Shown here: piece by piece, positions 8,969 to 24,054 of the stretch
Layout: each line of letters opens with the position of its first letter
Position numbering within the stretch: position 1 is the stretch's first letter
NCBI GenBank assembly: GCA_009602725.1
Contig: WELB01000040.1
Span: forward strand, 109,018 to 134,715
From: Spirogloea muscicola
Taxonomy: Eukaryota > Streptophyta > Zygnematophyceae > Spirogloeales > Spirogloeaceae
DNA: 25,698 nucleotides
Reading direction: 5' to 3'
Position numbers and translations under genes: made by a program
The notes under the pieces: model-generated
Databases searched by the model: none
What the model was told of the DNA's origin: nothing
What the model saw: only the letters and a program-made list of their open reading frames with translations

Positions 8969-11940
8969 GACCCCGTGGTGGCGGAGGGGGAGCAGCGCGC
9001 CGAGGACCGCGCCTGGGAGCGCGAGCGCTTCCGCCAGGCGCGCGAGGACCTGCTCGCGCGTCACCGTGGCGCTCACGGCGGCTGGGTGAGTCCCCCGCCG
9101 GCTGCCGGTAGACCGCTGGCCTTTCCCTCCAGTGGTCGCAGATTCGAGTCCTGCCGCCGCCGCTCGCTCGACAGAGCGCCGGGCTCTCCACCCACCGGTC
9201 GCAGGTTCGAGTCCACGCTCACGGAGAGCCGGCGGCAGCTGGAACGATCGACCGCTCCGGTAGACGTCGATCGGTCGGCCGTCCGTCCTGGCTCTGCGGC
9301 GGAGGCGACGGCCTCGCGAGCTGGCTCTTATGGCGGACTTATGGAGTGGATATTGAGAGATGGAGGGTTCGAGTGGCCACAAGTACAGAGGCAAGCACAT
9401 GTAGCATGTGCTGATGGCGCCGGCGCCGCCGCTGGCCCATCAGGACCCGAGCGGCCACCGCCCGTTCGACGGCCAGGAGGTCGGGCGCGACCACGCCGAG
9501 GCGCACCGCCACCTGGGGGAGCTGGAGGCGGCCCGCCGCGCCCGCGAGGCTGCGCTGCGCCACGGCGGCGCCCAGCACCCCCGCCACCCCCACGGCTTCG
9601 CGGGTCATGACTACGAGCGGCAGCCCCACCATGAGGAGCTGCACGACGACCAGCACCACCCTCAGGCACCCATTGACCACGGGCACCACGAGGACGGCCA
9701 CCACCATCACGAGCCGCCTCACGCCGAGCATCATGGCGAGCACCATGAGCCGGAGCACCTTGACGAGCATCAAAAGTCGGAACACTACGACGGCATTGAC
9801 CATGGCGACGGCGAGAGCGGCCAACCCGGTCATGGGGAAGAGCACGGACACGACTGGGACGACCCGATCATCGATCTCCACACCGAGGACCTGGTGGGCG
9901 ACGGCGAGGAGCACGACTGGCAGGCGGGCGACTATGATGAAGACCCGGACGACTACTTCAACTATGACCACTTCAACATCACGTGGCGCATCAGCACGCT
10001 GTTCCCGCTCATCGACGTGAGCCCCACCGATGGCCGCATCTCCGAGGAGGAGCTCACCCAGTGGCATGTGCTGCAGGGTCGCAAGGCTAGCCTGCACCGC
10101 ACTGACCGTGAGATCGAAACCTACGACCGTAATGACGATGCCTTCATCTCTTTGGACGAGTACCTTGGATACGAGTCTGATGGTGAGCACCTCCAGCTTG
10201 AAGCTTTATCACTTGCTGAGTCTTAGGATTCCACCTTAGGGAATGCAAAAGTGGCAAGATCTGCAGATCAAGTATGGGTTGCTGTCAGTCACAGCCACAT
10301 TGAGCAATTCGATCGAGCATATCATACCAAAGTGAGGGATCCTTCTTGGGACAATTGATTGGATCTCAGGCAATGATAGAGCATGGCCTAAGTTTTTGTC
10401 CTTGACCACCAGCCTCTAGCTCCTTGAGCACTTCCGCTTTTTGGAGGATCAAAGTCAAGGCGTGTAGCCAGCCTGAAACAAGCATGCAGGCGTGCTTCCA
10501 GGAGGCCTTTGATCCTCTACAGGCAGGATGCGATGCTGTTCCTGCGCTTGTCTTGACTACTTTGGGCCTGCCCGCAGGGTCCGGCGAGTGGGACCAGGAT
10601 CTTCGCAACAAGACACAGGAGAAGTTTGTCATCTGTGATCTCGACAAAGATGGCTTGCTTAATAGGGACGAATTTAACGAGTGAGCACCATGGCTTTACT
10701 GCCATTCTCTGCAACTGTTGTTACTTTTATCACGGTCGTACTGCGCTTACTTGCTATACCTCTGTCAAGAAGTACTACCTCAGGGTATATGGAGAAGATT
10801 GCATCACCGTCTTTCCTCTGTTGAGAAGTTCTCTCTGAGAGCAGGTTTTTGCACCCAGAAGACAGTGAAAACGAAGTACTCAGACAGTGGCTGCGTAAGG
10901 ATGAGCTCAAGTGAGTCCCTTCCTATGCTGGAGGCTCAACCATCAGTGTAACTGAGATGCTGTGGAGTTCGTGCACTTTGGTCACACCAATTGCTAGTGT
11001 GGAAATTTAAGCAGCCACTCTTGTTTGGCGTGAGCAAGCACCTGTATTGCTCAGGCCTACATCAATCAATCCTCTTACTGTATCACCAGCCATATTCTGC
11101 AGGACTCGCGACGTGTATGAGAAAGACGGCAAGCTGTCTTGGGAGGAGTTCCACCAGGCCATGTACTCGGAGCTGCGAGACTGGAGCGAGGAGCAGCACT
11201 TCCAGGAGGTTGCTGTGAGGGGCTCCCACGTGGGTGCACAGGATCACCAGGCAGGCCCAACTTACCTCAAAATCGAGGAGGAGAAGAAGCAGAAGTCGAG
11301 GGCAATGTTTGACGAACTTGACAAGAATCATGATGGGTGAGATCGTCCACCCGAATCTTCTCCTTTCCTCTCTAGCTTTCCTGTGGGCCAGGCTGTCCTC
11401 AGGCTGGGCAGCATAAGGGTCTCTGTCGACCTTCTGACCTTTTGAGGTCACGCTGAGGCGCAACCCACATCAAGCTTATGTTGAGCCGTGAGGTAAGCTA
11501 TCTGCAATCATCACTCATGGTATGATCTGTTTTTGCTGAGTCTGTGCAGTTTCCTGACCGAGGATGAGCTGGAGCCAATCTTGGACAAGTTAGTACCAGG
11601 AGAGAGGCACTATGCCCAGCAGCAGGCCCACCACATGATGGAACAGGTTGACAATGCATGCCAAAGTGCCACGATCCTTGAATGTTTGCCGAGAGTGGTA
11701 TCAAATACGTTTCTTTCCATAAGGCTTTTGGCCAAATACATCAAGTTGGGCATTACTTTGGTTATGTTATGGATTTTGCTACTTGTGTACATGTCACAGG
11801 CTGACAGCAACAAGGACGGCCATCTATCGCTGGAGGAGATGGTGGAGCACCCCTATGTCTTCTACAACACCGCATATGAAGAGGAGGGCGAAGGAAGTCA
11901 TGCGGAGCCCGAGTTTGAGCACGAAGAGTTGCGACGATAG
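8969..11940 (+). CDS. CREC-family (calumenin/reticulocalbin-like) EF-hand protein with His-rich segment, 5' partial
   Basis: CREC proteins are multi-EF-hand calcium binders of the ER and secretory lumen. Exons: 8969-9085, 9405-10182, 10578-10680, 10845-10910, 11103-11336, 11550-11646, 11800-11940; phases agree and give 511 codons plus stop. Exon 1 (DPVVAEGEQRAEDRAWERERF) matches the segment just after the N-terminal membrane/signal region of plant homologues. Exon 2 holds a His/Asp/Glu-rich tract (about 9561-9861), then EF-hand 1 (IDVSPTDGRISEEEL, one residue longer than canonical) and EF-hand 2 (YDRNDDAFISLDEY). EF-hand 3 is CDLDKDGLLNRDEF, a fourth degenerate hand is VYEKDGKLSWEEF, the fifth is DELDKNHDGFLTEDEL and the sixth is ADSNKDGHLSLEEM. 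The end, EHEELRR, resembles an HDEL-like ER retrieval tail with two extra Arg. The signal peptide is missing because the frame stops at the N at 8968. Confidence 0.88.
9101..9217 (+). other. Two tRNA-like T-arms (B-box motifs) in intron 1 of the EF-hand gene
   Basis: At 9138-9154 the sequence reads as a T-arm: GCAGA, loop TTCGAGT, CCTGC (one stem mismatch). It is preceded at the usual spacing by a possible anticodon stem (9115-9119 with 9129-9133; nine-base loop) and a four-base variable region. A second copy at 9201-9217 carries a perfect B-box (GGTTCGAGTCC), but its T-stem is broken. The two share about 20 nearly identical bases, 63 bases apart. No convincing D-arm or full cloverleaf is present, so this is a tRNA-derived relic or chance GC-rich structure, not a working tRNA. 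Confidence 0.35.
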
Positions 11941-14096: not shown

Positions 14097-14338
<242 letters not shown>

Positions 14339-21010: not shown

Positions 21011-21430
21011 TCAAAGTCCACAGCGGTAGAAGTGGTCCCTTCGGGGCTGGTCCTCGTGATGCCTCTCCTTTTCGTGCTCAGCATGGGTCGTTGCCCAGCC
21101 AATGACATTTAACGTTGGTGCTCCCGCTTTGAAAGCAGCTATGAGCATGGTGTCGAGGAGGAGGCGAGGCCCACCGCTCCAGGGGGTGGCGGACATGTCC
21201 AGTCGCCACACATCAGGCTTTCCGCGTTTGTTGGTGTAGGCATGGTGCCCGACGCCTCCTCTGCCAGATGATACCCAGCCTCGTAAACAATGCTAAGTGT
21301 AGCATCTTCTGGCAGGTTGTAAGAGGCAATGCGTTCACCACCCACAACACACCATAGCATGCGGGCAGCCAGAGAAATCTCTTCATAAGCTCAGTTGCCG
21401 CCCCTGGCACTGGCAGATGCAATCCAGCCA
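21011..21430 (-). pseudogene. Decayed protein-coding sequence, frameshifted, identity unknown
   Basis: Two minus-strand frames succeed each other. One (about 21360 to 21200) carries protein-like sequence such as MLWCVVGGERIASYNLPED. The other (about 21250 to 21011) continues with KPDVWRLDMSATPWSGG and MLIAAFKAGAPTLNVIGWA before a stop. Both look compositionally like real protein, and the switch suggests a single-base frameshift. The region directly abuts the left LTR, so it may belong to an older mobile element or a disrupted gene. I do not recognise the family and assign no function. Confidence 0.4.
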
Positions 21431-21455
21431 AGCAAAGGCGCCGATGATGGTGCAC

Positions 21456-21859
21456 TGTGTAACGGTAACGATGTTTAGCGACATTGGTTAGCCCAACAGG
21501 CCGACGGTTAGAAGTAATAGTATTGACAATGCATCGGCTTGCACGACAGTTGGGTGATAAGTTGGGTGCCACGTAGTACACGCATAGGCGCCACGCGTAC
21601 GTAGACACGTCATGATCCACGTGGCGACACGTCATGGTCCACGTGTCCACTGTGGACACGTGGCCTTGGCAGGTGGCAGTGCCACAGCCAGCTGGCTGCA
21701 TGGCTGTAGGACATCTGCCGGCAGGGGCTCTCCCATGTAGAGGGCTCCACCCTTGTATCAGACGCTTTCTTGGCAGACGACCAATCCATTCCACGTCTGC
21801 ATTAGCGCTGCCTTGGCTCCGGCTGCTTAACCCACGGCCGTTAGACCTGCGCCCATTTT
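21456..21859 (+). repeat. Left long terminal repeat
   Basis: It is the direct-repeat partner of 22871-23259, perhaps 75-80 percent identical by eye. It contains clustered CACGTG/ACGT motifs at 21605-21663, including a perfect 11-base inverted repeat. The boundary with the interior is placed where similarity to the right copy ends, after GCCCATTT. Confidence 0.65.
21605..21663. promoter_or_regulatory. CACGTG-rich block with hairpin inside the left LTR
   Basis: ACACGTCATGATCCACGTG at 21605 is repeated with one change at 21627 (period 22). It runs into CCACGTGTCCA (21639-21649), three bases, and its exact reverse complement TGGACACGTGG (21653-21663). CACGTG is the G-box core bound by plant bZIP and bHLH factors (established knowledge), so an enhancer role in the LTR is plausible but inferred. 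In the right LTR the same block is degraded. Confidence 0.5.
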
Positions 21860-22220
21860 GCTGGTGGAGACGACGGGTACCTTGCGCGCGAGAAGGACGC
21901 TCTCCGACGACCGACGGGTTGAGAGGAGCGCAACGACAGCGCCACCTCCTGACGACGACGAGCAAACGGCGAAGAGCGCACCGACAGCGCCACGCCACGA
22001 CGGTTCCCGACTTCGGCTCCTTCGCAGCGGCCAGGCCCTTCGAGTTCTGGCAGCGAGCGGACCGCAGTCGGCAAATCGGATGACTAGCCGGCTTAAAGCG
22101 GACGCCTGCGGCTGCATGGTGCTCCTGCTGGCTAGACGACCACGGCATGTGCCGAGCAGAGCGGCAACTGCAGCGGAGCTGAAGAGCCAGCAACACGACA
22201 TCGAAGACACGATTCGATAA
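21858..22220 (+). pseudogene. Decayed gag-like ORF start in the LTR element
   Basis: An open frame begins right after the left LTR and runs 120 codons to a TAA. Its first part is rich in Arg, Ala, Asp and Pro; its end (AELKSQQHDIEDTIR) is coiled-coil-like. After the stop the coil-like coding pattern continues into the palindrome arm in interrupted frames, indicating one nonsense change and at least one single-base indel. Position and composition fit a retroelement gag remnant, but no zinc knuckle or other diagnostic motif is visible. Confidence 0.35.
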
Positions 22221-22584
22221 GTTCGCATTGACCAGCACAGGCCGGAAAGTGCAGCAGAACGCGGCGGATCTGTTCGAGTACCAAGCAGCCACATGCAAAT
22301 TAGAAAGGCAAAAGCAGGAGGTAGAAGCATGTTGCAGTAAGCCCTCAGAGTTTGGGGTTTAGGGTGTAGGATTTAGGGTTTACGGGTCTAGGGTTTAGCA
22401 GAGGGCCTTACTGCAGCATGCTTTCTACCTCTTACTTCTGCCTTTCTAACTCGCGTATGGCTGCTTGCTGTTCGAATAAATCCGCCGCGTTCTGCTACAC
22501 TTCCGGCCTGTGCTGGTTGATGCGAAGTTGTCGAATTGTGTCTTCGATGTTGTGTTGCTAGCTCTTCTGCTCTGCTGCAACGCG
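22164..22584. repeat. Large imperfect palindrome with telomere-like centre
   Basis: The left arm (22164-22346) and right arm (22401-22584) are inverted copies of about 183 bases, clearly homologous end to end with scattered substitutions and small indels. The arms meet across a 54-base spacer built of TTTAGGG-like units. Both arms carry the same decayed coiled-coil coding pattern in opposite orientations, so the right arm is an inverted duplication of the gag-like end. The duplication has since diverged. Confidence 0.85.
22347..22400 (+). repeat. Interstitial TTTAGGG-type telomeric repeats
   Basis: The spacer reads as about seven consecutive seven- to eight-base units: TTTGGGG, TTTAGGG, TGTAGGA, TTTAGGG, TTTACGGG, TCTAGGG and a final TTTAG. 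TTTAGGG is the plant-type telomere repeat also used by many green algae. All units are in one orientation, so this is a single degenerate tract, not a head-to-head telomere fusion. Confidence 0.8.
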
Positions 22585-22784
22585 AGGTGACGTGCAGGGA
22601 CGCCAGTGGGGAGGTAAGCATAGTGACCCTCCACAGGATCCAGCGGGGCGACGAGCCACCACAAGTGGCGAGAAGACATGCAGGGCTGGCATTACAGAGG
22701 CGAGCAAAAGGGGAGCACTGTGAGCCACAGCAAACCTCGGCAACCCCCTGCACTTTTCCACTTTTTTGTTTGGTTTGATGTGCA

Positions 22785-22817
22785 TTGATTTGATTAGATT
22801 TGATTTGATTTGATTTG
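22785..22817 (+). repeat. TTTGA microsatellite
   Basis: About six five-base units (TGATT/TTTGA, one interrupted by TTAGA) lie inside the LTR element, about 50 bases before the right LTR. Confidence 0.8.
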
Positions 22818-22870
22818 CCTTGCACTCTCCTCCTAGTCCCTGAGGCTTAACTTCTCCGCCGAGGAGGCAG

Positions 22871-23259
22871 TGATGTAACAATAACGTTAGTTAGCGGCAT
22901 TAATTAGCCTAACAGGCTGACGGTTAGAAGGAGTAGTATTGACAATGCATCGGCTTGCACGACAAATGGATGATACGTTGAGTCTCACGTAGAACATGCA
23001 TAGACGCCACGTGTAAACATGTCATGATCCACGTTGCGACACGTTGTGATCCACGTGTCCACTGTAGACATGTGGCCTAGGCAGGTGGCATTGTCATGAC
23101 CTGGCTGCATAGCTATAACACAATTGCCGGCAGGGGCTCTCCAACATAGTAAGCTCCACCCTTATATTTGGCAGCTGCCTAATCCATTCCACATCTGCAT
23201 TAGCGCTGCTTTAGCTCCGATTACTTAACCCACAACTGTTAGACCCGTGCCCATTTCAA
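22871..23259 (+). repeat. Right long terminal repeat, transition-rich decay
   Basis: It matches the left LTR throughout. Many differences are C to T or G to A relative to the left copy (for example CCGACGG to CTGACGG, GGACACGTGG to AGACATGTGG), leaving this copy more AT-rich. A TATATTT near 23163 could be the LTR TATA box; the left copy has TGTATCA there. Confidence 0.65.
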
Positions 23260-24054
23260 CTGCTAAACGGAACAGATCGTTCTTGAGCTAGATATACCTG
23301 TATAATGGAAAAGAGTCTAGCTACTCGCACACTCCATGAAGACTTATGGAAAGGAGCTGGGAAAGACCATGTCTATCGTTCTTGATTGTCCCTATAAGCT
23401 TAAAAACGGAGTGTTTGTCCACTGCGTGTGTGAGACGAGCATGCGGACAATTTGGGACAACCTACCAACTCCACCAAGCCTGCGTGCCACTCCACAAGTG
23501 AAAGGAAGATGCGGAAAAACTGTGGACACAAGTGCTGATGAACAATCCCAGCACCTGTGTGTTGTTCATACCACAGAGCTCTTAGGCAAGGTGGCAATCT
23601 TATCGACCGTATGCTGCTTGCCTAGAAGTTCGCTGAAGGCATCGAGGTGCCCAGCGGCACAATTTTGCAACATAAGATGCAGCTACTTCAGTGATGTGAA
23701 GCTGAATACATGCTCGACAGGGTTCCAATATTGCAAATAGTACTCCAATGTTGTTTGTGAGACAGATAGGGATGTAAGCAAAGAAGATGCCTCATCGTAT
23801 CAATCTATTGAGTGGTGTCTTCTGCAACTATCATGAGTTTCTATAGCATGACAGCAGCATACAGCTTGGGTAGATCAGAGCACACAGTGCGGTGGTTTGC
23901 ACTTGGTCTTCTGCAAGTGTTGTGGACAGAATGGATGCAAAGTGGTTACCAACCCATTCTGGTTGCCTAAGCTTTTCACACAGCCCTCTGATTGAGTTGA
24001 GGTGCCCATGTCGTTACTTTCAGCACCTATATGCAGTTCATCCCATCTACAGTC
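23260..24054. other. Non-genic or deeply decayed sequence
   Basis: A 134-codon plus-strand frame (23336-23740) and several short minus-strand frames exist, but none shows a recognisable domain, consistent codon pattern or splice structure. The stretch lies between the LTR element and another decayed ORF and is probably old mobile DNA. Confidence 0.4.

Follow-up and report, generated by a model that had tools for sequence, protein, structure and literature searches.

A degenerate telomere-like tract in the loop of an inverted repeat within a decayed LTR element of Spirogloea muscicola

A decayed, non-autonomous LTR element of 1.8 kb (21458-23258) in the genome of Spirogloea muscicola hosts two inverted arms that enclose a short tract of degenerate TTTAGGG-type units. 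The structure lies in a stretch of 25,698 nucleotides at C40:109018-134715, hereafter the window, and was compared with the organism's own genome (153 Mb in 471 contigs, with TTTAGGG telomeres). It is best read, with a probability of roughly 0.6, as a one-off composite repair scar in an old element, made of an inverted copy of element sequence and of telomeric filler. The structure looks like a kind already described rather than a new element or mechanism, and it probably has no present function beyond that of a possible, predicted source of hairpin RNA.

The left arm (22169-22346, + strand, 178 bases) keeps its native position and orientation, and the right arm (22401-22579, - strand, 179 bases) is its inverted copy. 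The two match at 154 of 177 aligned bases and are separated by 23 substitutions, 20 of them transitions, with three gap columns (K2P 0.148). In a 612-base stretch around them the inverted local score reaches 360, whereas 500 dinucleotide shuffles average 24 and never exceed 46. The palindrome described in the initial annotation is therefore real, with arms of 178 and 179 bases in place of the 183 given there. Folding bears it out as well: the predicted RNA fold of the region reaches -302 kcal/mol against -141 for shuffles, and none of 100 shuffles is as stable. No known miRNA was found at gathering score. Three miRNA families match with 47.9, 33.7 and 21.7 bits where their cut-offs lie at 135, 100 and 90 bits, and such sub-threshold matches may be what a long hairpin gives.

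The hairpin loop holds the telomere-like tract, best placed at 22351-22398 (+ strand), which reads TTTGGGG TTTAGGG TGTAGGA TTTAGGG TTTACGGG TCTAGGG TTTAG and departs from pure TTTAGGG by about four base changes and one insertion. Tandem Repeats Finder reports 22350-22398, with a period of 7 and 6.9 copies. Aligned to pure TTTAGGG, the interval 22347-22400 (54 bases) scores 72, beyond all of 2000 shuffles (mean 20, maximum 49). Seven degenerate units thus stand at the palindrome centre, as had been proposed, in 48 bases rather than 54.

The host element is bounded by a target-site duplication, ACTG, at 21454-21457 and 23259-23262. Its 5′ LTR (21458-21860, + strand, TGTAACGG...TTTTG), also recognised from relatives in the same genome, and its 3′ LTR (22874-23258, + strand, TGTAACAA...TTTCA) are direct repeats of 385-403 bp that both start with TGTAAC. 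Because the ACTG duplication ties them together, both LTRs belong to one insertion. Aligned over 385 columns they show 65 substitutions, plus 18 gap columns (K2P 0.196). The left LTR shares 86-87% with a relative, C136, but 83% with the right LTR, and against each relative compared it is the right LTR that has diverged further. Faster change in the right LTR would explain this, as would an LTR pair that is unreliable as a clock. Among the relatives, target duplications read by eye are identical on both sides at C91 (GAGG) and C136 (CAAG), and flanks agree at three of four bases at C98 (GAGG/GCGG), at C25 (CCGG/CCAG) and around the LTR copies L019 and L022.

Directly after the LTR, CTGGTGGAGACG is present in the window, C136, C98, C91 and C370, and C25 and C102 have variants of it. 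The LTRs of C136, C98, C91 and C370 end in GTTTCA followed by CTGGTGGAGACGCC; the window LTR is followed by CTGGTGGAGACGACGG, which is likely a primer-binding site (putative site TGGTGGAGACGACGG, 21862-21876, + strand, with similar sequence right after the LTR in the relatives read). One exact pattern search of the genome found no convincing tRNA partner for it: the single match is not recognisable as a tRNA, and the reversed control gave more matches (10+5). ARAGORN finds no tRNA genes in the window, including at a pair of 42-base copies (9110-9151 and 9173-9214), 79% alike, that contain GGTCGCAGRTTCGAGTCC, which resembles a tRNA T-arm. Elsewhere in the window, at about 14107-14335, roughly 107 N followed by 122 T mark an assembly gap beside a homopolymer; the whole window contains 108 N.

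Between the LTRs lie 1013 bases. Their 5′ part (21861-22168, + strand), where a small broken ORF starts, matches C25, C91, C98, C136, C102 and C370; their 3′ part (22580-22873, + strand), which ends in a purine-rich stretch just before the 3′ LTR, matches C91, C98, C136, C25 and C370. An interior of this size is too short for both a reverse transcriptase and an integrase, and the element is therefore taken to lack its own. The position of the arm ORF after the LTR is compatible with gag, possibly of a family outside Pfam. A Pfam scan of one window frame, one C136 fragment and the C98 ORF, which is open over 165 codons, found no gag family, and the name "gag-like" given to the arms is not sustained in these three pieces. 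FGGY_C, in the window frame, was the sole Pfam match below E 0.001; it falls under its cut-off and is taken as chance.

Relatives in the same genome show which parts of this arrangement are native. Matching pieces number 24 for the LTR query and 59 for the interior query, many of the latter matching the telomeric tract alone. Both interior ends are held by five places besides the window (C25, C91, C98, C136 and C370); C25 and C91 have the ordinary direct orientation, and C370 has a short direct repeat around the interior. In C25 the 5′ interior and a single arm are present, with no inverted copy and no tract, and the left arm of the window runs on from the 5′ interior exactly as it does there. 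The right arm joins native 3′ interior at a common GCA (by eye). The arms are 87% identical to one another, and C25 is 76% and 70% identical to them; with no nearer relative found for either arm, the right one is a local copy. Changes polarised by C25 in a three-row alignment fall evenly, 12 derived on the left, 12 on the right and two ambiguous; these 26 exceed the pairwise 23 because the three-row alignment puts some columns elsewhere than the pairwise one. A DNA search of the genome for further arms returned only C25, so that the sole other copy found in this way exists without a telomeric centre; the initial annotation had named arms lacking such a centre as an outcome that would refute it. 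C98 and C136 carry a related segment at the arm position that is too diverged for a DNA search; in C98 it was recognised by reading the open frame beside that of the window.

Telomeric words are absent from the element in all five relatives with both ends of the interior, and the C25 locus shows them at one place outside it. The tract is therefore not part of the family's design, and the proposal that an element family carries telomeric sequence as part of its structure is not supported for this LTR family. Among 15 family loci with their flanks, seven (L012, L013, L021, L045, L058, L059 and L060) contain no telomeric 7-mers and eight (L009, L019, L020, L022, L027, L028, L032 and L042) contain one to a few isolated ones; in L009 they lie outside the element, and one of those in L019 falls between two pieces of an interrupted LTR. 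No run of telomeric units like that of the window occurs among the matches listed for these 15 loci.

The bases around the tract hint at how it arrived. The loop is ordered CCCTCAGAG, tract, CAGAGGGCC, and the native C25 sequence at this place is CTCAGAGCAGAG. Judged from these few bases and from a single relative about 25-30% diverged, the tract seems to interrupt the native loop sequence of the inverted repeat, with CAGAG resuming beyond it; a 5-base direct repeat beside a tract with flexible edges is not a very rare chance occurrence. At the putative break one base, a G on the left side, is in register with the telomeric repeat. These flanking bases suggest that the tract entered the loop of an inverted repeat that pre-existed or arose simultaneously, and a chromosome end that was first healed and then duplicated is not required. 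The initial annotation's break healed with telomere addition and followed by inverted duplication would hold in kind, as a repair scar, without that particular route being needed.

The preferred reading, a composite repair scar, would proceed in a few steps. At or near insertion, the middle of the element would have been lost and replaced by an inverted copy of its own preceding 178 bases, the first coding segment, through strand switches at microhomology, first to the other strand and then back. This would have left a strong hairpin with a loop of few native bases. A break in or near that loop would then have been repaired, or the same event would have continued, with about seven telomere-type units inserted as filler, and all parts would have decayed afterwards. 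We infer this order of events and the enzymes behind it from the locus and from its paralogues in the same genome. The arms (K2P 0.148) and the LTRs (0.196) do not differ significantly (two-sided Fisher test on substitutions, p=0.26), and the age test therefore does not order the events. The load of the tract, four substitutions in 48 bases, is in line with the rate per lineage for both the arms (p=0.42) and the LTRs (p=0.59), a weak test on few sites, and all parts may therefore be of one age.

An unlikely alternative is a fold-back in one step, in which a break beside the left arm is extended by telomerase and the extended end folds back, copies the arm and joins the right side. TTTAGGG on the top strand is the correct strand for a left-hand end and the tract sits exactly in the loop. 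In yeast, breaks give fold-back inversion or de novo telomere addition as alternative outcomes (PMC7467729). The CA(GAG) to the right of the tract, however, resembles the native left-side continuation seen in C25 and not the product of priming from a telomeric 3′ end.

Reverse transcription could also have made both the inversion and the tract, had the enzyme changed templates from the element RNA to the cDNA it was making and to telomeric RNA (UUUAGGG, TERRA-like), with integration of the product. This route draws on two of the five relatives with both interior ends, C136 (L058 326-3795) and C98 (L059 310-3324), which are whole-element palindromes of the form LTR, interior, inverted interior, inverted LTR, with the U3 terminus at both outer ends. 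Copies of CAAG flank C136, and since the final A matches too, the duplication may be one of 5 bases. The C98 locus contains a copy of the C136 site without the insertion, and the centre of the C136 palindrome falls where the purine-rich stretch meets U3. By their structure the two look like inverted cDNA integrated as a unit; to judge by them, the family has generated inverted products on at least two occasions, and their outer ends look like the work of integrase. Because of these products the route was kept for the window inversion, which may itself be a product of reverse transcription rather than of break repair, as the C98 and C136 palindromes seem to predate integration. The arms are not significantly younger than the LTRs, although if anything they are slightly so, and the G-rich strand is the element's sense strand, as copying of UUUAGGG RNA would give, although such agreement has a one-in-two chance. 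At least three template switches would be needed, and C136 and C98 are both without telomeric words, so that the route as a whole is improbable. It is rather doubtful that the family habitually switches strands into inverted cDNA and integrates hairpins, with the window copy having copied telomeric RNA in addition. A literature search of titles and abstract beginnings, which could miss other wordings, found no description of palindromic or inverted-duplication LTR cDNA.

The C91 (L060) and C98 (L059) elements, whose LTRs are 95% alike, lie at the same site of an older, diverged repeat. Their right flanks agree at 78% over 558 columns and 82% over 504; their left flanks, which are out of register, agree at 80% over 46 columns beside the element and 92% over 116 columns further out. 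Given the 92% piece, two independent insertions at one site are no more than the likelier account, and the common site may reflect a target preference.

Degenerate telomeric tracts are common in this genome. A three-unit 21-mer with at most two mismatches gives 2083 matches (1104+979), and the reversed control 6 (3+3); the matches overlap within arrays and take in terminal arrays, so that they do not number separate loci. Among 17 regions around tract matches, two reach a contig end (C229 and C29) and six belong to a MITE. The remaining nine are further interstitial loci, eight of them independent, since those in C44 and C1 are copies of one another. None of the eight independent non-MITE loci, a non-random sample chosen by likeness to the window tract, has matching inverted arms around the tract within 250-300 bases on each side. 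One of these loci, L075 (C146:65300-65850), has two degenerate tracts in opposite orientation about 230 bases apart, beside a neighbour that is coding-like by eye. A long interstitial telomeric array occupies L047 (C35:114726-117776), with 72 exact units in the locus and best matches 28 bases apart that span at least 450 bases. Inside another contig, at C27:905790 to at least 906261 among the matches listed, + strand TTTAGGG units nearly abut - strand units head-to-head, a junction that is either a chromosome fusion or an assembly join.

The MITE (L063 113-583; L066-L070) is a family unrelated to the LTR element, presumably pogo/Tc1-like. It measures about 471 bp, with TA at both ends, 25-base terminal inverted repeats (TACAGTCATACCTCG...) and a telomere-like palindromic core with a 65-base inverted repeat; in copy C199 only one end was recognised. 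Capture of a fragment of this element as templated filler could account for the window tract. One copy, C65:682429-682929, has TGTxGGA ahead of TCTAGGG, as in the tract (local score 71, one mismatch in 25), and the family has 40 matching places, some of them partial, among 40 scored of 129 candidates. This origin is nevertheless very unlikely: contig-terminal telomeres (77, 76 and 72) and the pure repeat (72) score as well or better, the remaining five MITE copies read reach 66, the tract lacks any MITE flank, and single variant units recur in unrelated tracts. None of the six MITE copies read contains the 8-base unit TTTACGGG. For the 25-base tract core, the window has the only exact match and seven more places lie one mismatch away; since terminal telomeres, the MITE and other tracts resemble the tract to a similar degree, it points to no unique source. 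An assembly or read fold-back artefact has a negligible probability, since the arms are 13% diverged and each has changes of its own, and both arm ends join native element sequence.

Two of the observations made around the window structure may matter more than the structure itself. Palindromic whole-element LTR insertions, one with a clear target duplication, form the first of these. The second is a DNA-transposon MITE that has spread a telomere-like core genome-wide and that can inflate counts of interstitial telomeres.

Strict TRIMs have very short LTRs, about 100-250 bp, and no ORF; with LTRs of 385-403 bp, and with an open frame of 165 codons in its relative C98, the window element was rejected as one of them. 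It was likewise rejected as a retrozyme, as no hammerhead family was found up to E=1 in 21300-23400 and no Rfam family at gathering score in the window. In its two direct LTRs and short interior the element is like the TRIM, SMART and retrozyme groups, and a 4-base target duplication is also reported for retrozymes (PMC4918200). The inverted duplication around a short loop is like the fold-back inversions of yeast; unlike these, which come from a selection assay for gross chromosomal rearrangements (PMC7467729), the window structure is interstitial and has native element sequence on both sides.

A further close likeness is to the interstitial telomeric sequences left by break repair in mammals, which share a short degenerate tract, an internal site and duplicated or inverted flanks (PMC2246262, PMC7215372, PMC8537989). 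Telomeric insertions at breaks are well established in mammals and have at least one nucleotide in register at 77% of 47 informative mouse loci and 75% of 63 informative rat loci (PMC2246262); one-step insertion with pieces of telomerase RNA is also described (PMC8537989). In the horse, 19 of 66 loci with telomeric insertions show complex changes, and three of the 66 include inversions; the same report gives such complex rearrangements as absent from its authors' earlier rodent and primate set (PMC7215372). The window arms, at 178 bp, are longer than the inverted duplications of 38 and 53 bp named there for one horse locus. The window structure differs from the mammalian cases also in its host, an LTR element of a genome with TTTAGGG repeats, and in the central place of its tract. 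An LTR element as the host of telomeric filler provides a rough clock, and the association of such filler with an inverted duplication, as in the horse, is now seen in a TTTAGGG genome and inside an LTR element.
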